Positions 145 to 24,752 of a stretch of DNA of 32,769 nucleotides are shown here, one piece after another. The notes beneath the pieces are model-generated. The model was not told where the DNA came from. It made no database searches and saw nothing but the letters and a program-made list of their open reading frames with translations. How positions within the stretch are numbered: position 1 is the stretch's first letter; each line of letters opens with the position of its first letter. The stretch is from Polyangiaceae bacterium (GTDB taxonomy: Bacteria; Myxococcota_A; Polyangia; Polyangiales; Polyangiaceae). The translations under genes and the position numbers were made by a program. The DNA lies in the NCBI GenBank assembly GCA_009781005.1, contig WQYX01000048.1:1-32769 (forward strand). Reading direction: 5' to 3'.

Positions 145-264
145 CCGCTTTCGATTTGACGAGATCTCATCGTTGGGGCCTGCGGTGCGGACCTCAAAGC
201 CACACAGGCTGTTCCGGTCCGCTCCTCGGCCCCGCCTCGACCTCGCGTCAACTTGAAAGCGGTC
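145..264 (-). repeat. Family-1 palindromic repeat, copy A
   Basis: 120 bp, inverted relative to copies C and D. One end reads CCGCTTTCGATTTGACGAGA and the other, on the opposite strand, GACCGCTTTCAAGTTGACGC. The centre has the AGCC/GGCT apical stem with loop ACACA. It is bounded by TAG on both outer sides (CTAGCC and, on the opposite strand, TTAGACC). It lies 3' of the minus-strand gene that ends at 367. Confidence 0.85.
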
Positions 265-366: not shown

Positions 367-1236
367 TTATGAGCGTGCTGAGAGAGCAGAGACCACGTTC
401 GCTAGCACCGCCGGCGCTGTGGGTCCCATGCTGCGCATCGCGGAGACGAATGCTGCGTTGACGATGGCGACGGTAAGGAAAGCTTTGCGATGCGCGGCGA
501 CCTCCGCGTCGAATACCGCACGTAGTTCGGATACGTCGAAAGACTCGCGCCGCACGTCCTCGAGCGTCACGATGTCGAGCTCCGCTTGCCGCCGCAAAAC
601 ATCGTCGCACGCGAACACGAGGAGCCGGTAGTCGCGCAAGGCCGACGGGATCGACTCTGGCGCCGTGTGCGCGAGCGCCTGTTGGATCGCGAGCGCCGAA
701 CCATGCATCGAGCGCGTGTCGCGCTCCTCTCCCTTTGGTGACGATCCGCGCTCGATCGCCCAATGGTCCTTTAGCAGGCGCACGAAGTGAGGCTCGAGAT
801 CTTCGTCCCCGCGCACGCACGCGAGGTAGTGCTGTTGGGTGACGAGCTTGAGGTGGAGCGCGAGGATGAGCAGCGCATGCGGTGAGGCGTTGGCGAGCTT
901 CCGCGCGAGATCGTCCGTATTCTGCACGTAACGGGGTTCGACGGGAAAAACCTCGACGAAGGCGGCTTTGAAGGAGCGGAAGAGATCGCGGTGGTCGAAC
1001 GAGTCGAGCCGCAGGAGCGGCGCGATCGTGTTGCGGGCCTGAAAGTCACTCGTGGCTCGCGACCGCACGGCCGACGCGAGCGCGCCTTCGAAGAGATCGA
1101 ACAGGTGCACGTAGCCCGACGCGCGGATCTGGTTGAGCAGACGTCGGTCCCTTTCGCCGAGCAAACGCACCGGCAGGATGCCCGCGAGTGCCTCGGGGAG
1201 GAAGTGACGCGAAAGCTGGAGCTCCGAATCGGTCAT
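367..1236 (-). CDS. Helical protein, possibly ferritin-like (hypothetical)
   Basis: 289 aa, all-helical in appearance, with no signal peptide or membrane segment. Start chosen at ATG 1236 (MTDSELQL) because it follows a purine-rich GGGGAAGGG ribosome-binding sequence; the open frame extends upstream without further support. From memory, the conserved-looking stretches (LFDLFEGAL, FDHRDLFRSFKAAF, LLILALHLKLVTQQHY, FVRLLKDHW, RQAELDIVTLE) resemble a myxobacterial family of uncharacterised ferritin-like proteins in which HW is followed by EEAxHAxLD. Here that stretch is replaced by a low-quality sequence, while an alternative frame reads ARHALDAW at the same place. A short compensated frameshift is therefore possible (see findings). 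It is monocistronic, flanked by repeat A downstream and a 516-bp divergent spacer upstream. Function is unknown. Confidence 0.65.
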   Translation of the reverse strand: MTDSELQLSRHFLPEALAGILPVRLLGERDRRLLNQIRASGYVHLFDLFEGALASAVRSRATSDFQARNTIAPLLRLDSFDHRDLFRSFKAAFVEVFPVEPRYVQNTDDLARKLANASPHALLILALHLKLVTQQHYLACVRGDEDLEPHFVRLLKDHWAIERGSSPKGEERDTRSMHGSALAIQQALAHTAPESIPSALRDYRLLVFACDDVLRRQAELDIVTLEDVRRESFDVSELRAVFDAEVAAHRKAFLTVAIVNAAFVSAMRSMGPTAPAVLANVVSALSARS

Positions 1237-1752
1237 TGCCCTTCCCCTCACCTCAGCTCGCGGGCGCGGGGCGCGCGGGCGTTGGACTGCCCCGGTAGTA
1301 TCCACAGACTCGAACGCCATCCGAACGCACATATCCGTCCACCCAAACGAACCAGCTCGGCGTCGCAATGCGCGGCGGCCGCGGTCGACGTACGGTGCGC
1401 TCGCGGTCGACTCGCGGATGCAAACGTGAGGCGGAGGACATCACGAGATGCGACGCAATGGCGATGCCATCACGCCGCAAGGCCCCAACGATGAGATCGC
1501 GGCAAATCGAAAGCGGTCGAAGCGCCACGCCCGTAGCATCGTGGTGCGCGTAAACCCGACCCTTGCACGCGCGGTGTTACCCCCTTTGTCGCATCCGGCA
1601 AAGCATGCTTGCCGCGACGTCGAATGGATATGTGGGTATCCACAACATGCCACCATCGAGATTCATTGGAGTCGCATGCGTAGCACATATGCCGCGTGCT
1701 CCCCTGGATCGCCGAAGGCCGAGGTACGCAGGTTGCTCGAGAGGTGATGACC
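1237..1752. other. Divergent intergenic region, 516 bp
   Basis: Lies between the divergent starts at 1236 and 1753 and must hold both promoters. Visible elements are a half copy of repeat family 1 (1475-1518) and two short inverted repeats: CGGCAA/TTGCCG around a 7-base loop (about 1599-1617) and TGTGG-GTAT-CCACA (about 1632-1645). The second region could be an operator for the biosynthetic cassette, but there is only one copy of each. No convincing ORF was found. Confidence 0.5.
1475..1518 (+). repeat. Family-1 repeat, right-half fragment (copy E)
   Basis: GGCCCCAACGATGAGATCGC at 1481-1500, followed by a terminus reading AAATCGAAAGCGGTC, matches the right half of copy C almost base for base. 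The left half is missing, so this is a degraded or half element. It is the only family-1 member in the window that does not touch a stop codon. Confidence 0.75.
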
Positions 1753-7488: not shown

Positions 7489-7637
7489 TAAGAGCGTGTT
7501 TACCAGCCGTTGCGAGCGAATCGAGGCTAGGGCGGAGCGCGAGGAGCCCGCGTAAGCGTACTTTTCGTACGTGCGCAGGCACCGCAGCGCCCAACCGACG
7601 TATCGATTCGCGCAGCAGGCTGCCCTACACGCTCTAA
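7489..7637 (+). repeat. Family-2 palindromic repeat, copy 1
   Basis: 149 bp with ends TAAGAGCGTGTTTACCAGCC and, on the other strand, TTAGAGCGTGTAGGGCAGCC. The tip at 7557-7571 is the perfect hairpin CGTAC-TTTTC-GTACG. The long arms are imperfectly complementary. It lies directly between the two acyltransferase genes, so any read-through mRNA would carry this structure. Copies 2 and 3 are at 23557-23821. The two-hairpin module seen in copy 3 is absent here. Confidence 0.85.
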
Positions 7638-15225: not shown

Positions 15226-15394
15226 CCTCTTTCGATTTGACGCGATCTCGGCATCGACGGCGCCTTCGGCGCTGTCGGCCCCGCCTACGGCGGGAACCTC
15301 AGGGGGGCCTGCGCTGCGGTCCTCAAAGCCAGAACAGGCTGTTCCGGTCCGCTGCTCGGCCCCGCCTCGACCTCGCGTCAACTTGAAAGCGGTC
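15224..15394 (-). repeat. Family-1 palindromic repeat, copy B, with inserted module
   Basis: 171 bp. Ends are GACCTCTTTCGATTTGACGC and, on the opposite strand, GACCGCTTTCAAGTTGACGC. The apical AGCC/GGCT stem has loop AGAACA. It is about 50 bp longer than copies A, C and D because of a two-hairpin module at 15251-15303. Its first two bases lie inside the TGA stop of the beta-propeller gene. Nothing further was recognised in 15395-15556. Confidence 0.88.
15251..15303 (+). repeat. Two-hairpin module inside family-1 copy B
   Basis: Contains GCGCC-TTC-GGCGC and CCCGCC-TAC-GGCGGG, both with three-base loops, and ends CCTCAGG. A near-identical module in inverse orientation lies in family-2 copy 3 (23732-23782). 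It is absent from the other members of both families here. Confidence 0.8.
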
Positions 15395-15556
15395 TAACTA
15401 ATACTCGGGTGACCGCGACACCGGCGTCATGATGGGTGCCGCGGACGAGTCAACGACCGCCTGCTAATCTCTTGCAATTCTCGGCACTTGAACGAAAAAC
15501 GAAGGAGGCGCCGAGTCGGCACGCACTGTGGATCCACGAGCATTCCGCGTGCTTGA

Positions 15557-16477
15557 ATGTTTCGAGCCAACCTCCCACAGGCGGAGCTCTCTTTGTGCAG
15601 TGTTAGCTTGACCAGGACAATGATCGCGCTCGGGCTGACCGGCGCCGTGACCGCTGCGATGGGTTGCGCCGCAAGCAGCGCGCTACCGTTTGACCTCAAC
15701 CCACCGTCCGATGGCGGCACGCAGACGGGGACAGCGGGGTCGGCAGATGGCGAGCCGAGCGACGTCGACCGTACCCCAGACGCTCCGACGTCGAACTACC
15801 GCGGTAGCCCTCTTTGCCGTGTCAGCACGACGGCGGAGGGCTGCATGCCCGATGACACGGGCACTGAAGTTGCGTGTTACACGGACCCGCCCAGCACGGA
15901 CGGCAGCACGAACGTCACCGACATCCAGGGATGCAGGCTCGTTCGCACGGACACGGATGTTGCGCCCGAATGCGTCGCAGCGAACCTGGATGGCACCGAT
16001 GGCAGGGGCTGCTCTGCTAGTGAAGAGTGCGCACCTGGTTTCGACTGCGTTGCCGGGGCCGGTGGATGGGTATGCCGTCGCTACTGCTGCGCCGGTACGT
16101 GCGACGATCAAGTGACCCAGAGCGGAGGGCCAACGTTCTGCGATGTCCAACTCCTCGCCAACTCCGCAATCACGGCACCCGTCTGCATGCCGCTCAAGAG
16201 ATGCACTCTTCTCGAGCCTGGCACATGCGCCGAGGGCGAAACATGCGCGGTCGTCAGCGACGCCGGTGACACCGGCTGCGTGACTGTGGGCGACGCAGGA
16301 GCCGGCGCCTTCTGCGAAGACACGCACTGCGCAACGGGTCTGACGTGTCTCGGCGCACCCGGCAATCGAAAATGTTACGAGCTGTGCAGAGTCTCGGACA
16401 GCACATGCAGCGGGGGACAAACCTGCAAGACGAGCGCGCTCTTCAAGGACCCCACCTACGGCGTCTGCCAAACTTAG
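15557..16477 (+). CDS. Cys-rich lipoprotein (hypothetical)
   Basis: 306 aa from ATG 15557. TTG 15593 has a better-placed GCGGAG and is a plausible true start. The signal segment TRTMIALGLTGAVTAAMGC carries a lipobox with lipid-modified Cys37. A low-complexity Asp/Ser/Pro/Thr linker follows. The rest has about 24 cysteines in short spacings (CSASEECAPGFDC, CRRYCCAGTC, CAEGETC, CEDTHCATGLTC), a pattern common in myxobacterial surface proteins with many disulfides. No catalytic motif is visible. It is convergent with lptD, with only 17 bases between stop codons, made of two repeat-end sequences. The function is unknown; a surface or matrix role would be a guess. Confidence 0.8.
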   Translation: MFRANLPQAELSLCSVSLTRTMIALGLTGAVTAAMGCAASSALPFDLNPPSDGGTQTGTAGSADGEPSDVDRTPDAPTSNYRGSPLCRVSTTAEGCMPDDTGTEVACYTDPPSTDGSTNVTDIQGCRLVRTDTDVAPECVAANLDGTDGRGCSASEECAPGFDCVAGAGGWVCRRYCCAGTCDDQVTQSGGPTFCDVQLLANSAITAPVCMPLKRCTLLEPGTCAEGETCAVVSDAGDTGCVTVGDAGAGAFCEDTHCATGLTCLGAPGNRKCYELCRVSDSTCSGGQTCKTSALFKDPTYGVCQT

Positions 16478-16494
16478 AGCGCTTGAAAGCGGTC
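16474..16494 (-). repeat. Hybrid repeat remnant between convergent stops
   Basis: TTAGAGCG (the family-2 terminus) runs into GCTTGAAAGCGGTC (the family-1 terminus, opposite strand). The TAG of the Cys-rich lipoprotein is in the first part and the TAG of lptD abuts the second. CGCTT-GA-AAGCG can form a small hairpin. Confidence 0.5.
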
Positions 16495-18483
16495 CTACTT
16501 CGTGGTGGCGAAATCCAACGCCATCCACACGTCGACACCGTTTCGGCCGATGCGATGGGCCGCCATCGCGCGGAGGGTAATGCATCGGCATCGATCGCGC
16601 AGCTCGATGCCGCCTCGAACATCCACGATCTCGCCGTGTGTTGCATCTGCGTCTGCTGCTGCCGACGTTGTCAGCAAGGGTGACCACGGAACGACAATGG
16701 CTGCTCCTCCGGTCGTTCCTTGTTGCGTGAGAAACCCTGCCGACGGTTCGAGCGGCGCATCGACGAGCGCGCGCGCAAGGATCGGATCGACACCGGACAG
16801 AGTCGCAAGGTTACCGAGGATCCGCGCCCCGTTCTCGAGACCGAGTCGAAGTCGTGCCACGGTCGCTGCGCCTGCGCCTGCATCGGGATTGGACGAAGCA
16901 TCGCCTGAACCGAGAACGTACGCGCCGTCGAGCGTGGCGCCCGCCCACGTCAATGTTGCTGCCGCTCGCGCGCGCGCGAGCGGCCGCGCCCCCGAGCTAG
17001 CGACGCCCGATCCGAATGCGGCACCTGCCGCAGCTTGGATCGAAATCGCCTTGCGTGTCCCCCACTGCCCGAGCGACGTCGCAACGCCCGCTTCAGCAAC
17101 GCCCGCAACACCTACGACCGATGAAGTCCCTTGCCCCGGAGCGATGCCGAGCATGCCGTCGCCTTTCGCACCAAGGATGGATGCTTCGGCAAACGGCTCG
17201 ACGAGGTGAATCCACGGATCGTTCGGCGCGCTCGCATCATCGAACGTTCGCGACAAGGGCAGCGAGAATCGGGCGCGCGCTGCACCCGCGCGATCGGTGC
17301 CGCTCGTGTCGCTGTCCGCGGTTACGTCGACCACGCCGCGAAGGGAGAGCGACGCGGCCACCGGTCCAAACGACGTTGCGCCGAGAGTTCCTGCTTCGGC
17401 ACGCGCGAAGCTAAGTGCGGACCCCGATGTCTCGAGCACGCCACCCTCCACTGTCTCGAGCACGCCACCCTCCACGCTCGCGTCGTAGGCGATGCCTGTT
17501 GCGAGAGCGCCGGACGACCGCACGCGCGCAACCGGGCCCCACGCATCTACGAGAGAGAGCGATCCACCTCGACGCGTGACACCGACAAGCGCTGTCGACA
17601 CGACGAGTGGTCCGGCGCGAAGTGCCGTCTCCGCGCTGGCACGGTCCCACGGTTTCGCGGCCGCGTTGAGCTCCGTCGTCGAAGCGACGCCGCGCGCTCC
17701 GCGCAAGACATCTGCGTCCCACGCGATGCCGGCCTCTCCATCGTTCATCGCGCCGCGTGAATCGATGAGGAGCCCATCGCCTCTCGTCGTGCTCGCGGGC
17801 GCCACGCCAAGTGGTGTGGGGTTCGAGCTACGCGGGAGACTGTCGAAGCGGATCCTCGTCGTGCTCGTCGGAGTCCTCAAATACGCGTCGACTGCGAAAC
17901 CCGAAAGCACGTAGACGCCGCCGCGCAGATCGACGGAGTACGCCCCGCGGTCCCACGGCACGTGCACACCCTCACCAACGAAAAGCCCATCGCCACCGCG
18001 GTACGCGATGTCCGGCGGCAAGAGTCCCAACTTTTCGTCCGACCGCAGCCAAAAGTACGGCAGATAGAAAACGGGCACGCCGTAGATGCGCAGAACTGGC
18101 GACGACAAAACCAGATCACCCGGTGCGACGATGGCGTGATTGAAGTCGACACGCAGAGGCGTGCCGAGACACGGACAGAACGCGAGCTGCCCTTTGCCAT
18201 CGACCTCGACGCCATAGCGTGTGCGCGCGAGCGTGAGGCGATCGGCGCGAAGATGAAACGGTGCCGAGTCGATACGGACGTTGCCAGACAGTTCGAGGGT
18301 GCGAAGTCGAAGATCGAAAGCTACTTCTTCGGCGTGCGTGCGAAAGGCCGATCCGAGAGCGTCACCTTCGAGCGACACGTCACGAGCGCTGTCTTCGTCC
18401 TTGGCTGCCGGCAACGTCTGCGCGAAAACCTGAGACGGCACGACCAGCGCAGCGACAGTGGCCCCCAGAAGTCGGCCTCGCAT
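16495..18483 (-). CDS. lptD: LPS-assembly outer-membrane protein LptD-like
   Basis: 662 aa with a signal peptide (residues 1-21, cleavage after VFA). Residues about 48-110 form an OstA/LptA-like domain (FDLRLRTLELSGNVRIDSAP, LRADRLTLARTRYGVEVDGKG). The diagnostic LptD segment VLRIYGVPVFYLPYFWLRSDEKLGLLPP follows, then a long beta-rich region ending DVWMALDF, as expected of a barrel. LptD receives LPS from the periplasmic bridge and inserts it into the outer leaflet. It contains exactly four cysteines: C103 and C105 near the N-terminus, C632 and C634 near the C-terminus. It is somewhat shorter than E. coli LptD and carries an 8-residue tandem duplication (VEGGVLET twice). It is cotranscribed with the AMIN-like gene 20 bp upstream. 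The start ATG 18483 has no strong ribosome-binding site. Confidence 0.82.
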   Translation of the reverse strand: MRGRLLGATVAALVVPSQVFAQTLPAAKDEDSARDVSLEGDALGSAFRTHAEEVAFDLRLRTLELSGNVRIDSAPFHLRADRLTLARTRYGVEVDGKGQLAFCPCLGTPLRVDFNHAIVAPGDLVLSSPVLRIYGVPVFYLPYFWLRSDEKLGLLPPDIAYRGGDGLFVGEGVHVPWDRGAYSVDLRGGVYVLSGFAVDAYLRTPTSTTRIRFDSLPRSSNPTPLGVAPASTTRGDGLLIDSRGAMNDGEAGIAWDADVLRGARGVASTTELNAAAKPWDRASAETALRAGPLVVSTALVGVTRRGGSLSLVDAWGPVARVRSSGALATGIAYDASVEGGVLETVEGGVLETSGSALSFARAEAGTLGATSFGPVAASLSLRGVVDVTADSDTSGTDRAGAARARFSLPLSRTFDDASAPNDPWIHLVEPFAEASILGAKGDGMLGIAPGQGTSSVVGVAGVAEAGVATSLGQWGTRKAISIQAAAGAAFGSGVASSGARPLARARAAATLTWAGATLDGAYVLGSGDASSNPDAGAGAATVARLRLGLENGARILGNLATLSGVDPILARALVDAPLEPSAGFLTQQGTTGGAAIVVPWSPLLTTSAAADADATHGEIVDVRGGIELRDRCRCITLRAMAAHRIGRNGVDVWMALDFATTK
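17429..17476. repeat. 24-bp tandem duplication within lptD
   Basis: Two adjacent 24-bp copies differing only in the last base encode VEGGVLET twice. It is in frame and likely lies in a barrel loop or strand. It could be a slippage product. Confidence 0.85.
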
Positions 18484-18503
18484 GCAACCAAATCGTTGCG
18501 CGG

Positions 18504-19142
18504 CTACCGCGTCGACTTCGTGTCTGCTGGGAGAAAGTTGCCCTTTGGGAAATCGATCGTAAGCTGCGCGGTCTTATCGGGGCCCTCTTGCATCTTCCAC
18601 GTTGGGGTCACCTCGGAACGCAGATCGACGACGAAGAGCAAATCTTTGCCGCGTGGAACGAGGCGCGCGCGAGAGGCGGGGGTGTTGAAGTGAACCGTGA
18701 CGAGCGAGTTTAGGTTGTTCGACAAGCGAACGTGCGCGCCTTTGAGAACGTAGGTGAGTGTGCCCCGCGCTTTGCGCTCCTCGACGGGTACCGACTGCGT
18801 GAGTTGCACGAAGAACCGTGAACCCCCGTCGCCACGTTGTTCGAAGCCCGGAAACGTTGCTGTTGGTCCAGAGGATTCGTGATGCACCGATCGAGGAGCG
18901 TGACTCGCTTTTTTTGCTGGTTTGTTCGAGTACGAGTAGCCAGTTGCGGGCGTCTTCTTTTCCGCGCCAGCATCTTGCGACGTGTCTGCCGATGGTTCCG
19001 GGGCGTTGCTCGGTGCGCCCGGGGCTGGCGCGCCCGGTGGAGGAGCGGGCGATGCGGGAGGGGAGGAAGCTTGCGCCAGTGCTGCGGCCGGCGCGAACCA
19101 TGCGAGTGCGAGCGCGCAAACGCTACGAGCGGAGAAGCTCAT
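18504..19142 (-). CDS. Exported AMIN-like domain protein
   Basis: 212 aa from ATG 19142 (MSFSARSV); an upstream GTG is open but unsupported. A signal peptide ends near ALAQA, followed by a Pro/Ala-rich linker (residues about 25-75). The C-terminal ~110 residues form a beta-rich domain: GGSRFFVQLTQSVPVEER, GTLTYVLKGAHVRLSNNLNSL, TPASRARLVPRGKDLLFVVDLR, QLTIDFPKGNFL. These resemble the AMIN domain, which targets periplasmic proteins to the cell wall or outer-membrane complexes. It precedes lptD by 20 bp on the same strand, so it may assist outer-membrane assembly; that role is inferred from position. It is divergent from the bactofilin gene. Confidence 0.7.
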   Translation of the reverse strand: MSFSARSVCALALAWFAPAAALAQASSPPASPAPPPGAPAPGAPSNAPEPSADTSQDAGAEKKTPATGYSYSNKPAKKASHAPRSVHHESSGPTATFPGFEQRGDGGSRFFVQLTQSVPVEERKARGTLTYVLKGAHVRLSNNLNSLVTVHFNTPASRARLVPRGKDLLFVVDLRSEVTPTWKMQEGPDKTAQLTIDFPKGNFLPADTKSTR

Positions 19143-19234
19143 GGCGCTAGTAGAGCATGCCCGCACGGGCGCCTACAAAGACGCGGCTCTTTAATTGCCA
19201 AGGTCCGGTGCGCCTGCTAACCGGTGCGGCCACG

Positions 19235-19594
19235 ATGGACGCGCTCCCAGCTACTGAAATCACCGCGCTACTCGGTCGCGGCACTCGCTTCGAAGGCAAG
19301 CTTTTCTTCGAGGGTCGCGTGCGCATCGACGGAATGTTCAAGGGGGAGATCAAGAGCGACGACACGCTCATCATCGGCGAGGGTGCCGAGGTGCACGCGG
19401 AGATCGATGTTGCCACGGTCATCGTTCGCGGCGGCGCCGTTCACGGCAACATTCGCGCAAGCACCGCTCTCGAGATCCACACACCTGGCAAGGTGATTGG
19501 CAACATCCACTCGCCGTCGCTCTTCATCGAGCGTGGTGTCGAGTTCCAGGGCTCCTGCCGCATGGATGCGATCGAGTCCGCCACGTCCGCGTGA
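19235..19594 (+). CDS. Bactofilin (polymer-forming cytoskeletal protein)
   Basis: 119 aa. The single bactofilin domain starts at about residue 8 (TALLGRGTRFEGKLFFEGRVRIDGMFKGEI). It continues with KSDDTLIIGEGAEVHAEIDVATVIVRGGAVHGNI and ends VIGNIHSPSLFIERGVEFQGSCRM, the regular beta-helix turns and GxI pattern of the family. These proteins self-assemble into filaments that position cell-wall and chromosome machinery. ATG 19235 gives the usual short N-tail; the open frame before it (ATG 19157) overlaps the divergent gene. It overlaps the next gene by 4 bases (GTGA). Placement next to lptD and an exported AMIN-like gene fits an envelope-organisation role. Confidence 0.88.
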   Translation: MDALPATEITALLGRGTRFEGKLFFEGRVRIDGMFKGEIKSDDTLIIGEGAEVHAEIDVATVIVRGGAVHGNIRASTALEIHTPGKVIGNIHSPSLFIERGVEFQGSCRMDAIESATSA

Positions 19595-20055
19595 AGATCT
19601 TCCTCCTGTGTGGTTCGCTCATGCTCGGTGCGTGCAGTCGTTCGCCGACGCACGCGCCAAGCCCACTGCGTCCAAGCAACGAGAGCGTGGACAAGAATGC
19701 CGGGACCGCGGTCATAGCGTCATCGCCACCGATATCGCTCGACGAGCTCGCGTCCGAAGGTCCTGCAGTCGCTCCGCTCATGCGCGAAGTATTGCGAGCC
19801 GATCTCACGCCGGGGCAGAAAGCCGAGATCGTTGTCGATCACGATCTCTGTCTGCGCGCAGCGTTCGCTTCGAACGAACCCGCACGTGCATGGTTCGAAG
19901 ACGGCTCTGGCGCTCGGCGTGGTGAAGCCACGCACGCGACTCACGACGTCGTTCCTCCGCGCGGCCCCGTGTGCGCAACGAAGGGCGAAACACTGCGCCT
20001 CATCGTCTCCGGCCCGCCGAACGTCGTCGCGCGCGCCGTCATCTGGTCGTCGTAG
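19591..20055 (+). CDS. Small lipoprotein coupled to bactofilin
   Basis: 154 aa from a GTG overlapping the bactofilin stop. The signal peptide MKIFLLCGSLMLGAC has a lipobox with Cys15. The mature part starts with a Ser/Pro-rich linker, then segments such as LTPGQKAEIVVDHDLCLRAAFASNEPARAWFED and GETLRLIVSGPPNVVARAVIWSS that look like a small beta-sandwich. I recognise no family. The tight coupling suggests it works with the filament at the membrane. Its 3' end overlaps the convergent glycosylase gene by 17 bases. Confidence 0.75.
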   Translation: MKIFLLCGSLMLGACSRSPTHAPSPLRPSNESVDKNAGTAVIASSPPISLDELASEGPAVAPLMREVLRADLTPGQKAEIVVDHDLCLRAAFASNEPARAWFEDGSGARRGEATHATHDVVPPRGPVCATKGETLRLIVSGPPNVVARAVIWSS

Positions 20056-20698
20056 ATTTTCCGAGGCCGATCGATCTGCGCGGCGGGCGCGACACGAACG
20101 CGCTCTCTTTGTCGAAGAAGCGCCACGGTGCCTCGGCGATCTCGCCGGCATACGCCACACCCACGCGCGCGGACACGCCGATGCATGGCCTCTTCGTGCG
20201 TGGTGTCACGAAGATCTCGCTGTTGCCTGCGAGATCGACGCCGTCATGTGTGCGCGTGATGCCGAGAGCGCGCGTGAGCCGCCCAGGACCGTCCGCGCGA
20301 ACGTCATTCGGGATCCCGAGCACGGGCTCGCCCGCGCGAACGAGCACGGCATGACCCCTTCCCTCTTCGAAGCAAACGATATTGAAGCAATCGTACATGC
20401 CGTAAATGAGATACACGTAGGCATGTCCTGGATCGCCAAACAGCGTCCGCGTGCGCTTGGTGAGACCTGCGCGCGCATGTGAAGCGCGATCCTTCGGCCC
20501 GCAATACGCCTCGGTTTCCACGATGCGCACGGCGCGCGTCTTGTCGCCGTGACCCGGCGGCAGAGCATCGTCGCGCCGATCATGCGGCGTGCGCACGACG
20601 AGATACGTCCCTAGGAGAGCGCGCGCGAGCACCCTCGCATCGCGCGCATAGTCCTTACGCGTGAACCCATCACCGACCAAAAAAGATGCGCTCTTCAA
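20039..20698 (-). CDS. DNA-3-methyladenine glycosylase (AAG/MPG family)
   Basis: 219 aa. The AAG-type fold is recognisable from DYARDARVLARALLGTYLV, RIVETEAYCGPKDRASHARAGLTKRTRTLF with the catalytic Glu in VETEAY, and GHAYVYLIYGMYDCFNIVC, then AVLVRAGEPVLG, GPGRLTRALGIT and RVGVAYAGE. It removes alkylated purines such as 3-methyladenine in base excision repair. The frame opens at TTG 20698; no ATG lies near the expected N-terminus and the ribosome-binding site is weak, so the start is uncertain. It is convergent with the lipoprotein gene (17-bp overlap) and starts head-to-head with the next gene with about 26 bp between. Confidence 0.9.
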   Translation of the reverse strand: MKSASFLVGDGFTRKDYARDARVLARALLGTYLVVRTPHDRRDDALPPGHGDKTRAVRIVETEAYCGPKDRASHARAGLTKRTRTLFGDPGHAYVYLIYGMYDCFNIVCFEEGRGHAVLVRAGEPVLGIPNDVRADGPGRLTRALGITRTHDGVDLAGNSEIFVTPRTKRPCIGVSARVGVAYAGEIAEAPWRFFDKESAFVSRPPRRSIGLGKSTTTR

Positions 20699-20724
20699 TA
20701 TTTGAACTCTGCTACCGATTGGCC

Positions 20725-21297
20725 ATGGATGTCTCGGTGTTCTTGGAGCCCATCGATCTCACGCGCCTCGCAGAAATCCTCGATGGTCTTGGTCACGAAG
20801 GTCGCGTGCATGCGATCCGTACATGGACGAAGCACCATCAGGCTGAACTCTTCGAGGCCGCCAAAGGCAAGAGACCGCTCGATCTCGACTTTCTCGTCCC
20901 TGCGAATACCGGGGCACTCGTCGAAGTGATTCACGACGGGCAGAACAGCCGGCCAATCTTTCATCACTTCCAGAAGCGCTTCGTGAAGCTCGAAAATGAA
21001 GACTTTGCCATTGGCGGCTACAACCATCAGGCAATGTCGGCTGCCACGGGTCCGGGTTACTTCGTCGTCCGCAAAGGTGACGGCGAGCACGAAGGCGAGC
21101 TCGCGATCGACTACGCGAAGCTCCCCAAGCACAAACCCGCGAGTTGGCCAGCCATCAAGTCAAACACCGGCCTCCGCTCGTTCCTTTATGGCGGCACAGT
21201 CGACTACCTGCGCGGGATTTCGCAACATGTGTCAATTGGCCGCGCATACAGGGGCAAGGCCATGGACACATGGTTTGCCCTCGTGCGCAAAAACTGA
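20725..21297 (+). CDS. Conserved-looking hypothetical protein
   Basis: 190 aa, soluble, with no signal peptide. Start is placed at ATG 20725 (MDVSVFLEPIDL); ATG 20686 is possible but overlaps the divergent glycosylase start. Blocks such as LGHEGRVHAIRTWTKHHQAELFEAAKG, LDLDFLVPANTGALVEVIHDGQNSRP, HHFQKRFVK, GYNHQAM, GPGYFVV, ELAIDYAKLP and YGGTVDYLRGISQHVSIGRAYR look like a globular conserved domain. I remember similar proteobacterial proteins of unknown function but cannot name a family. The TGA stop lies in the first bases of repeat copy C. Confidence 0.75.
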   Translation: MDVSVFLEPIDLTRLAEILDGLGHEGRVHAIRTWTKHHQAELFEAAKGKRPLDLDFLVPANTGALVEVIHDGQNSRPIFHHFQKRFVKLENEDFAIGGYNHQAMSAATGPGYFVVRKGDGEHEGELAIDYAKLPKHKPASWPAIKSNTGLRSFLYGGTVDYLRGISQHVSIGRAYRGKAMDTWFALVRKN

Positions 21298-21418
21298 CCG
21301 CTTTCAAGTTGACGCGAGGTCGAGGCGGGGCCGAGCAGCGGACCGGAATAGCCTGCTTTGGCTTTGAGGACCGCAGCGCAGGCCCCAACGATGAGATCGC
21401 GTCAAATCGAAAGCGGTC
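21296..21418 (+). repeat. Family-1 palindromic repeat, copy C
   Basis: 123 bp with ends GACCGCTTTCAAGTTGACGC and, on the opposite strand, GACCGCTTTCGATTTGACGC. It fills the whole space between two convergent genes. The plus-strand TGA (21295-21297) and the minus-strand TGA (21419-21417) both read TGACCGC into the element. The apical stem AGCC/GGCT has loop TGCTTT. It could act as a bidirectional terminator. Confidence 0.9.
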
Positions 21419-22193
21419 ACCGGTAATTGTCTTTTGCTTTGCGGATCGCACCCAGCGCGTCCTCGGACGAAGCGTTCACCGGAATACCGAGTGATGAACG
21501 GATTTCCGGTGAGTGTGTGCGCAAAAACGGATTGTAACAAAGTTCGTTTTCGATCGTGGACGGAACGGTGGGTTTGCCGTTCTTGCGTAACGCCGCAGTA
21601 TGTATCCGCGCCTCGGTGATAGCGTGGTTCAGTGGCTCGACATGCGCAGCGAACTTCAAGTTTGACTCCGTGTACTCATGACCGCAATAGACGCGCGTGC
21701 GCCCATCGAGCCGTGCGAGCTTTTGCAGCGACTCTTGCATCGCCGGTGGTTGGCATTCAAACAAGCGGCCGCAGCCGGCGACAAATAGCGTATCACCGGT
21801 AAATACTGCCGGATCGCCGTCGCCCGTCACGACGTACGCGACTGCGCCCGTCGTGTGTCCTGGGACATGCAGAACCGAGACTTTGAGTTTGCCAATCTCG
21901 AACGTGTCGCCGTCCCTCAAGCCGTGAGTCTGGCTGGGAATGCGGCCCTTGTCGCTCTCGTGCCCGTAGATGCGAAGGACGCCGAGCGTGAGTGCAACTT
22001 CTTGGTTGCCTCCAACATGATCGTGGTGGTGATGCGTGCACAAGATGGCCGCAACGCTCGCGGTCTCACGAGCGAGCGCGCGAAGCACGGGGCCAGGTTC
22101 CGCGGGATCCACGATGGCTGCCTGCTTCGTCTCGGGGCACACGAGCAAGTACGCGTAGTTGTCGGAGAGACACGCAATGGGGATAACGGGCAT
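21417..22193 (-). CDS. gloB: Hydroxyacylglutathione hydrolase (glyoxalase II)
   Basis: 258 aa metallo-beta-lactamase-fold enzyme hydrolysing S-lactoylglutathione in methylglyoxal detoxification. The metal site motif THHHHDHVGG is at 53-62, followed by VPGHTTGAVAY, FTGDTLFVAGCGRLFE and the glyoxalase II signature CGHEYTESNLKFA. The C-terminal domain (IENELCYNPFLRTHSPEIRSSLG) matches the substrate-binding region of GloB. Start ATG 22193 (MPVIPIACLSDNYAYLL) gives the expected N-terminus. It is 13 bp downstream of the sulfatase-like gene. The last codon and TGA run into repeat copy C. Length is normal for the family. Confidence 0.94.
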   Translation of the reverse strand: MPVIPIACLSDNYAYLLVCPETKQAAIVDPAEPGPVLRALARETASVAAILCTHHHHDHVGGNQEVALTLGVLRIYGHESDKGRIPSQTHGLRDGDTFEIGKLKVSVLHVPGHTTGAVAYVVTGDGDPAVFTGDTLFVAGCGRLFECQPPAMQESLQKLARLDGRTRVYCGHEYTESNLKFAAHVEPLNHAITEARIHTAALRKNGKPTVPSTIENELCYNPFLRTHSPEIRSSLGIPVNASSEDALGAIRKAKDNYR

Positions 22194-22206
22194 GACCGTC
22201 AACCTA

Positions 22207-23556
22207 CTATGGATTCTTCTTTTTCGCGTATGCGCCGTTCAGGCAGTCTTCTCCGCATGCATAAGGTGCGACTTGTTGTACCGCCTTCGACATCGCGCGA
22301 TAGCGCTTCGCCATCCTGTCGAAATCATCGCCTTTGGTCATTGGCGAATTCTCTTTTGGATCGGCCTCGAGATCGAAGAGCTGGAGGGCCTCGGTCTTTC
22401 CGAATGCGATGATTTTCCACTTCCCCACGATAAGCGCGCGTCGCTTGTCGTTGTTGCTCGTCATGGGGAGATCCACGACAACGTCGCGATCCTCCGCGGC
22501 AGCGCCATAGATCTCGGGCACGAGGCTCTTGCCCATGAAACCTGGATCCGGTGCCACGCCAAAAAACTCGAGGATTGTGGGCGCGAGATCGATGGCGCTG
22601 CGCGGCGTATCGATGTGACGCGCAGCGGCGCCAGGCGCGATCACGAAGAGAGGGACGCGCACGAGGTTTTCCCACACCTCGAATCCGTGCGCGTAGCGTC
22701 CGTGTTCGCCGAAAGCCTCGCCGTGATCGCTCGTGACGACGATCACCGTGCGCTTGGACCAAGGTTTCTCCGCGACGAAATCGAAGAGTTTGCCGAGCCA
22801 GCGGTCGGTGAATGTCACCTCGGCGTCGTAGCGATCACGCAGCGATTTCCCGTACGGGACAATGCCGTCTTTGTCGTGCGGCATGTACTGGTCGTGTGGA
22901 TCGAGAAAATGAAACCATGCAAAAAAGCGCATCGAGTCGAGCGCGGGATCGGACAAGAGCCGCTCGGCGATCGCTTCGTGTTGCGGGCTCGTGACGTTTA
23001 CGTCTGTCTCGCTGTTGAAGACGAGATTCGGCACGAGCTCCCACTGGTCGAAACCTTGCTTGAATCCGGCTGTCCCGAAGTAGGTATGCGCGTGAGCACC
23101 GATGGTGCGAATTCCTTTTTCTTGGAGAAGCTCAGGGAAAAAAAGATTCGACTCGGGGTAGGTTCCAAAAAAGTAACCGCTTCGTTTGAGCTCGCTCGGT
23201 AGCCTGCCCGACAGAAAGCCGCCGATGCTCATCGACGTGTACGACGAGACGGCGTAGGCGCGTGTATAGCTCACGCTTCTCTTTTCGAGCTCGGTAAGAC
23301 GTGGAGCAATGGCGCGCGGATAGCCGGCCCACGGCATGTCGGCGCGCAGACTGTCGATGGAGACGACGAGAACATTCAGATCTTTGGGGGGCAAGTTCGC
23401 CGCAGCCGAAGACGCAGGCGCGGTCGTCGCACTCACATGAGCATCGGCGTCGGCGCTCGCGTCTGCGGGCGCATTGCGCGATCCGCGGCAAGCACCAAGG
23501 CTTGCAACGATGAGCGTCGCAACAGCAGCGGAGGCAACCGAACGTACGTTACTCAT
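22207..23556 (-). CDS. Sulfatase-like lipoprotein (alkaline phosphatase superfamily)
   Basis: 449 aa. The signal peptide has lipobox SLGAC (residues about 18-22), so the enzyme is lipid-anchored. The alkaline-phosphatase/sulfatase fold is shown by NVLVVSIDSLRADMPWAG (first metal Asp), FAWFHFLDPHDQY, VIVVTSDHGEAFGEHG (second metal Asp-His) and HGFEVWENLVRVPLFVIAPG. At the nucleophile position it reads AVSSYTSMSIGGFLSG. The Cys/Ser-x-Pro-x-Arg motif needed for formylglycine is missing, so a Ser or Thr nucleophile (phosphotransferase or phosphodiesterase-like) or loss of activity is likely. The ATG at 23556 directly abuts a family-2 repeat, and no Shine-Dalgarno sequence is visible in the repeat end. 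It ends 13 bp before gloB. Confidence 0.85.
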   Translation of the reverse strand: MSNVRSVASAAVATLIVASLGACRGSRNAPADASADADAHVSATTAPASSAAANLPPKDLNVLVVSIDSLRADMPWAGYPRAIAPRLTELEKRSVSYTRAYAVSSYTSMSIGGFLSGRLPSELKRSGYFFGTYPESNLFFPELLQEKGIRTIGAHAHTYFGTAGFKQGFDQWELVPNLVFNSETDVNVTSPQHEAIAERLLSDPALDSMRFFAWFHFLDPHDQYMPHDKDGIVPYGKSLRDRYDAEVTFTDRWLGKLFDFVAEKPWSKRTVIVVTSDHGEAFGEHGRYAHGFEVWENLVRVPLFVIAPGAAARHIDTPRSAIDLAPTILEFFGVAPDPGFMGKSLVPEIYGAAAEDRDVVVDLPMTSNNDKRRALIVGKWKIIAFGKTEALQLFDLEADPKENSPMTKGDDFDRMAKRYRAMSKAVQQVAPYACGEDCLNGAYAKKKNP

Positions 23557-23626
23557 TAGAGCGTGTTTACCAGCCGTTGCGAGCGAATCGAAGCTAGGAC
23601 GGAGCGCGAGCACCGTTAGCGAAAAC
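23557..23626 (+). repeat. Family-2 palindromic repeat, left-half fragment (copy 2)
   Basis: About 70 bp, matching the left arm of copies 1 and 3 (AGAGCGTGTTTACCAGCCGT, then GCGAGCGAATCGAAGCTAGG), ending before the tip hairpin. Its outer end touches the sulfatase-like start codon. Copy 3 begins immediately after, in the same orientation. Confidence 0.8.
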
Positions 23627-23821
23627 TTAGAGCGTGTTCGCCAGCCGTCGCGAGCGAATCGAGGCTAGGGCGGAGCGCGAGGAGCCCGCGAAAGCGTACT
23701 TTTCGTACGTGCGCAGGCACCCGAGCGCCCACCTGAGGTCCCGCCGTAGGCGGCCGGGCAGCGCCGAAGGCGCCATCGAAGCGAATCGATTTCGCGCAGC
23801 AGGCTGGCGAACTCGCTCTTA
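23627..23821 (+). repeat. Family-2 palindromic repeat, copy 3, with inserted module
   Basis: 195 bp. The ends TTAGAGCGTGTTCGCCAGCC and, on the opposite strand, TAAGAGCGAGTTCGCCAGCC are nearly identical inverted repeats. The tip CGTAC-TTTTC-GTACG is at 23695-23709. It is longer than copy 1 because of the module at 23732-23782. The opposite-strand TAA end is the stop codon of the adjoining lipoprotein gene. Confidence 0.88.
23732..23782 (-). repeat. Two-hairpin module inside family-2 copy 3
   Basis: Inverse of the module at 15251-15303 with only a few differences. It starts CCTGAGG and contains CCGCC-GTA-GGCGG and GCGCC-GAA-GGCGC. Confidence 0.8.
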
Positions 23822-24629: not shown

Positions 24630-24752
24630 GACCGCCTTCAAGTTGACGCGAGGTCGAGGCGGGGCCGAGGAGCGGACCGGAACAGCCTTGAAGGCTTTGA
24701 GGACCGCACCGCAGGCCCCCAACGACGAGATCGCGTCAAATCGAAGGCGGTC
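24630..24752 (+). repeat. Family-1 palindromic repeat, copy D
   Basis: 123 bp. Ends are GACCGCCTTCAAGTTGACGC and, on the opposite strand, GACCGCCTTCGATTTGACGC. Both arms carry the same T-to-C change relative to copies A-C, so pairing is kept. The apical stem is AGCCT-TGA-AGGCT. It fills the gap between the nuoI stop and the next start codon. Confidence 0.9.

Follow-up and report, generated by a model that had tools for sequence, protein, structure and literature searches.

How does one short stretch of DNA come to lie within two repeats that seem to have little else in common? This is the question raised by the 32,769-nucleotide window analyzed here, contig C48 of a 4.77-Mb genome (199 contigs) of a Polyangiaceae bacterium. 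The original prediction held that a near-identical module of two hairpins is inserted in one copy each of two palindromic repeat families, F1 and F2, and might be a nested, independently mobile unit or a functional cassette such as a protein-binding RNA module. The relevant features of the window are the following.

15253-15303, plus strand: two-hairpin module in F1 copy B (match to covariance model R1, 75.4 bits, E 4.5e-16)
15259-15272, plus strand: hairpin 1 of this module, GGCGCC-TTC-GGCGC, identified from the sequence
Within 15253-15303, plus strand: hairpin 2 of this module, CCCGCC-TAC-GGCGGG, then the 3' border ACCTCAGG, identified from the sequence
15226-15398, plus strand: F1 copy B, filled; the module lies 5' of the internal junction
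145-262, plus strand: F1 copy A, empty, a comparison site
21298-21416, minus strand: F1 copy C, empty
24632-24750, minus strand: F1 copy D, empty
1480-1518, minus strand: F1 end fragment
23732-23780, minus strand: two-hairpin module in F2 copy 3 (match to R1, 71.0 bits, E 6.4e-15)
23630-23818, minus strand: F2 copy 3, filled, with TIR GAGCGTGTTCGCCAGCC / GGCTGGCGAACTCGCTC
23627-23629 (left) and 23819-23821 (right), no strand: TTA, the 3-bp target duplication of the F2 copy 3 host
7492-7634, minus strand: F2 copy 1, empty, flanked by TNA target duplications that match
23559-23611, minus strand: F2 half copy adjoining F2 copy 3

The module and its two hairpins

The two modules are indeed near-identical, with 45 of 52 alignment columns the same, and both display the two hairpins (GGCGCC-TTC-GGCGC and CCGCC-TAC-GGCGG) and the ACCTCAGG border. 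Their bit scores, with E values of ~1e-15 genome-wide, exclude a chance match. As had been claimed, the module is absent from all other complete copies in the window, that is, three of F1 (A, C, and D) and one of F2 (copy 1). Elsewhere in the window, a large ORF holds a perfect 24-bp tandem duplication (17428-17475).

The module is 47-48 bp long and made up of two adjacent hairpins. Four loosely conserved nucleotides precede GGCGCC-TTC-GGCGC-nG(n)-TCGG-CCCGCC-TnC(n)-GGCGGG-ACCTCAGG, in which the loops are mostly triloops, some being of 4 nt. The module ends with ACCTCAGG on one side and with a variable TTNAC-like stretch on the other, and it has no TIR of its own, which leaves this criterion for a MITE unmet. 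Double-sided changes occur in 9 of the 16 pairs of its hairpins, giving a covariation score of 0.132 versus 0.096 in shuffles. None of 500 shuffles reaches this score, and sliding the partner abolishes the signal. Such compensatory changes, seen in sequence alignments only, support both hairpins, with the caveat that the alignment had been fitted to the tested structure and hence leans towards it.

Copies across genomes and inside protein genes

A covariance model of 49 positions was run over the whole genome, and an unbiased 400-kb genome sample and targeted stretches were analyzed besides. There were 116 matches at E <= 0.01 (~108 of them strong), and we examined the sequence contexts of 111. 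While ~50 copies lie in F2 and 24 (~25) in F1 at the site seen in the window, two or three further F1 copies (C32, C105) hold the module at a second F1 site, in opposite orientation. The search in other contexts that the original prediction had called for also found it in F2b (3 copies), in F4 (a TAGCCCGGATAATTCATGACG palindrome; 7 copies), in F5 (7 modules in five copies, two of these with two modules each), in F6 (~10 modules, some truncated, in the apical loop), and, without any host repeat, in protein genes (5 clear copies and 1 degenerate). The two-module F5 elements lie at C20:24016-24143 and C1:85287-85413. Sub-variants of the module, with TCGG and CCCGG spacers, recur across several hosts. 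With ~110 sites, spread over five or more repeat families and, in frame, over protein genes, the module is a tiny mobile element in its own right rather than merely part of a single repeat. The proposal of a nested, independently mobile unit is thus supported, and neither of the outcomes that would have spoken against it, confinement to one repeat lineage or homology of the host families throughout, came about, since the module also lies in protein genes without a host repeat and in F4, F5, and F6, for which no resemblance to F1 or F2 could be detected.

Among 108 genomes of the family, the module was found in the source genome, in its closest relative WQZB01 (Polyangiaceae), which has 8 modules, at least five of them in genes, and in a third genome, G010, with a few matches to the covariance model; two others gave weak matches. 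An exact-pattern search of GTDB species genomes yielded one further record, WQZB01, and no viral contig contained the exact pattern. Most data derive from two metagenome-assembled genomes, and present-day movement was not observed, which limits the evidence. The genic copies are as follows.

D-Tyr-tRNA deacylase (DTD) gene, source genome: module inside, no host repeat
Lhr-type helicase gene, source genome: module inside
Gene for a protein with an MrfA Zn-binding domain, source genome: module inside
GAF-domain protein gene, source genome: module inside
Gene of an unnamed protein, source genome: module inside
PEGA/TPR protein gene, source genome: degenerate module copy
Two alpha-2-macroglobulin paralogue genes, WQZB01: module inside each
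Response regulator gene, WQZB01: module inside
Big_5 protein gene, WQZB01: module inside
Kinase-like protein gene, WQZB01: module inside

Module-free orthologues, in up to five relatives, are available for the DTD, Lhr-type helicase, MrfA-type, and unnamed protein genes of the source genome, and likewise for the alpha-2-macroglobulin paralogues, response regulator, and Big_5 protein of WQZB01. In the clearest cases, the comparison reveals a clean gap of 48 bp, as expected of insertions of this length, and a target duplication could not be detected. The clearest border is that of the WQZB01 response regulator, where CTCGTC/TGCTGGCGCC...ACTTCAGG/GTGATG (slashes mark the borders) stands against CTCGTCGTGATG, without duplication, and none is recognizable in the gene pairs with alignable flanks. 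Repeats of 3-5 bp at the DTD, MrfA-type, and C5 sites were rejected as target duplications, having no common register and disagreeing with the reading frame. Exact genic borders are uncertain by about ±2 nt in most cases because the ancestors were inferred from relatives that are ~70-87% identical. The DTD gene is single-copy in the genome, and its protein, when compared with PDB 2dbo and 1jke, exhibits one insertion of exactly 16 residues.

Measured from GGCGCC to CCTCAGG, 10 of 11 genic copies are 44 nt long, which corresponds to a 48-bp insertion, and the modules in 49 of 49 F2 and 7 of 7 F4 copies are 43 nt long. Lengths that keep the frame are found in 10 of 11 genic versus 8 of 96 repeat copies (p ~1e-8). 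The repeats, with mostly frame-breaking lengths, provide a built-in control against which selection becomes visible. As far as can be inferred from sequence, this is a sign of selection on the copies within genes and indicates that these are truly coding. Since the module is read in different frames and from either strand in different genes, it is conserved as DNA, not as peptide. For the same reason, a protein motif, VHGAFGAVGPPxGGTSG, was rejected as the cause of the genic copies. As a separate observation, the GTPase EngB/YsxC gene (L246, C55, ORF 471-1325, minus strand) contains a complete F4 palindrome, in frame, with the module nested in it; the insert adds ~75 residues and is absent from the WQZB01 protein.

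Host repeats and exchange between them

Empty F1 is 117-120 bp long between the ends CCGCTTTC...GAAAGCGG, and empty F2 142-145 bp between GAGC...GCTC; each has at least 40 copies in the genome. F1, F2, and F4 are each a long palindrome bearing TIRs. A TNA duplication flanks F2 in 60 of 70 copies, filled copies having TNA too, and its TIR together with a duplication of fixed length make F2 a MITE-type transposon. No target duplication is recognizable for F1, whose flanks are mostly GA ... TCTA. An F4-type end (ATCCGGGCTAG) directly adjoins F1 copy A (131-142 in the window). Among the outer arms of F2 there are the variants GAGCGAGTTCGAC, GAGCATGTTTCCC, and GAGCGTGTAGGGC (e.g., 23630-23818 in the window and L107:10230-10417), and the matching variant is often present on both arms, as if one arm had templated the other.

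That the hosts share little sequence stands only in part. Compared directly, F1 and F2 are weakly similar (z 3.2), but F2b bridges them, with 27 aligned bases and two mismatches relative to F1 and similarity to F2 over most of its length. Consequently, the F1 and F2 hosts are mosaic and partly homologous. Filled and empty versions coexist in F1, F2, F4, F5, and F6, but the junctions are not clean, with 3-6 host bases replaced. As different hosts also share a GGCWT-like 5' extension of the module, recombination or template switching is suggested as an additional mover between hosts. When the empty versions of five hosts are folded, the module's entry site lies in or beside a loop, either internal or apical. 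A Fisher test, post hoc and covering these five sites only, gives p 0.008 when RNA parameters are used and 0.004 when DNA parameters are used.

Filled F2 copies do not have one another as nearest neighbors (0.33 observed versus 0.37 expected). One insertion into F2 with later amplification was rejected because the host sequences of filled copies form no cluster, albeit at low resolution, and this lack of clustering, together with the spacer variants common to several hosts, argues for several transfers. That recombination between repeats also contributes follows from chimeric repeats (an F1 left half, the module, and an F2 right half) and from a second cassette common to F1 and F2, a long 3' hairpin arm with CCCCGAGCAGGTTGCGGACCGAGTATTTTGGCCGAG... 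(L097:18125-18377, L015, L019, L024, and L091:1-94). A further hairpin, GTGCGTGTGCTA..TAGCACACGCAC, is found in F1, the F1 long arm, F2, and another context (L099:12498, L100:19333, L094:16210, and L204, the last downstream of the F4 copy), and may be a third unit with module-like behavior.

Could the main mover then be recombination between hairpin-forming repeats, or template switching among them, with no transposition of a defined unit at all and with the genic copies as rare by-products? The chimeras, the junctions with replaced bases and a common extension, the cassettes shared by F1 and F2, and the failure to find a transposase all speak for this, but the constancy of the 48-bp unit, which two species carry in ~9 unrelated genes without visible homology at the target, speaks against it, and we regard so exclusive a role as unlikely. 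Descent of the module from one palindrome superfamily, as an ancestral branch immobile by itself and lost from the "empty" copies, is very improbable. While the module occupies the same structural place in F1, F2, and F2b, and 27 bp are common to F1 and F2b, it sits at other structural places in the unrelated F4, F5, and F6, two F1 copies hold it at another site and in the other orientation, genic copies lack a surrounding host while their orthologues lack the module, and WQZB01 has F1 and F2 without the module yet genes with it; for the genic copies and F4-F6, this explanation is already refuted. We give slightly less credence still to a structure with a function, be it as protein-binding RNA, terminator, or IHF-like site, that selection would add to repeats and genes, since two strongly paired, covarying hairpins would suit it but copies lie on either coding strand, in different frames, and in unrelated proteins, no Rfam family matches the module at the gathering threshold, and the data do not require a protein-binding RNA cassette.

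Possible mode of movement and known systems compared

The module is therefore probably an independently mobile miniature element of the REP-dimer/RPE-like kind. We infer that it would also colonize the loops of palindromic MITE-like repeats, which would then carry it along, and that within these hosts it would multiply as they transpose and pass from one host to another. In genes, only insertions with multiple-of-three lengths would survive, each adding 16 residues. Movement as a folded single strand into unpaired DNA, whether loops of host palindromes or the lagging strand, is an inference; it is the likeliest mode, but unproved, and we propose it only tentatively. The absence of a duplication, the two-hairpin unit, and the loop targets are compatible with transposition of a single strand, as in the IS200/IS605 or REP systems. 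The hairpins and the missing duplication would suit a Y1/HUH transposase acting in trans, but no credible partner gene was identified: WQZB01 has no Y1_Tnp gene, despite its 8 modules, and the source genome has one, which is IS200-like and has end hairpins that, as read from its sequence, differ from the module. This gene is on an odd, small contig (L311, C187) that may be foreign to the bin.

The F1 and F2 copies examined in WQZB01 are empty, and its modules are mainly in genes, a pattern suggesting that the module existed as a free element in the genus; either it entered repeats on the source-genome branch or it was lost from them on the WQZB01 branch. A bolder idea, which we doubt, is that of a structure-recognizing DNA-hairpin parasite, whose folded single strand inserts into loops of any palindrome or into exposed lagging strand by an undescribed enzyme. 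If true, host palindromes would grow into branched trees of nested hairpins, and the long 3' arm and GTGCGTGTG hairpin cassettes would move likewise. With ~110 filled sites that have empty counterparts, the transposition mechanism of tiny palindromes becomes testable.

ERIC and RU elements are MITEs with internal insertions. F1, F2, and F4 resemble such nested systems, being palindromic with TIRs, with a 3-bp TNA in F2 and coexisting filled and empty copies, but here one insert is common to several MITE-like families, some of them mutually unrelated. Two adjacent stable hairpins also form the elements that spread in mitochondrial genomes. In overall build alone, the module is like these in its hairpins and its spread, and it differs in the type of genome; they go by the name of double-hairpin elements (PMC4478555).

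Similar in build are REPs, REP dimers, and REPINs, which are short GC-rich hairpins of high copy number in dimeric arrangement, some inside longer palindromes, as is the case for REP dimers of the GTAG-15 group in A. variabilis and CGTC-1 in H. neapolitanus (PMC3733652). However, the module lacks the unpaired GTAG/GGAG-type tag at the hairpin end of the GTAG superfamily, and no TnpA_REP/RAYT gene flanked by module hairpins was found in the source genome or WQZB01. The CGTC superfamily is defined by a CGTC tag and a hairpin with a 4-5 nt loop (PMC3733652), whereas the module has no conserved CGTC tag and mostly triloops. It further differs from REPs in that one module occupies at least five host families and coding sequence.

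Rickettsia palindromic elements (RPE) are small and palindromic, and lie in frame inside unrelated protein genes and between genes (PMC10969869). The module likewise lies in frame in unrelated protein genes and is absent from orthologues, which meets this criterion. RPE, however, are ~150 bp long, while the module has 48 bp and two hairpins, occurs in Myxococcota, in no fewer than three of the six reading frames, and also resides inside other repeat families. In-frame palindromic gene inserts (RPE) and REP dimers inside palindromes are known separately, but an element that does both, or that enters several MITE-like families unrelated to one another, was not described in the literature searched. 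With the module, the process by which selfish DNA adds peptides to enzymes can be studied in a second lineage, one far removed from Rickettsia.
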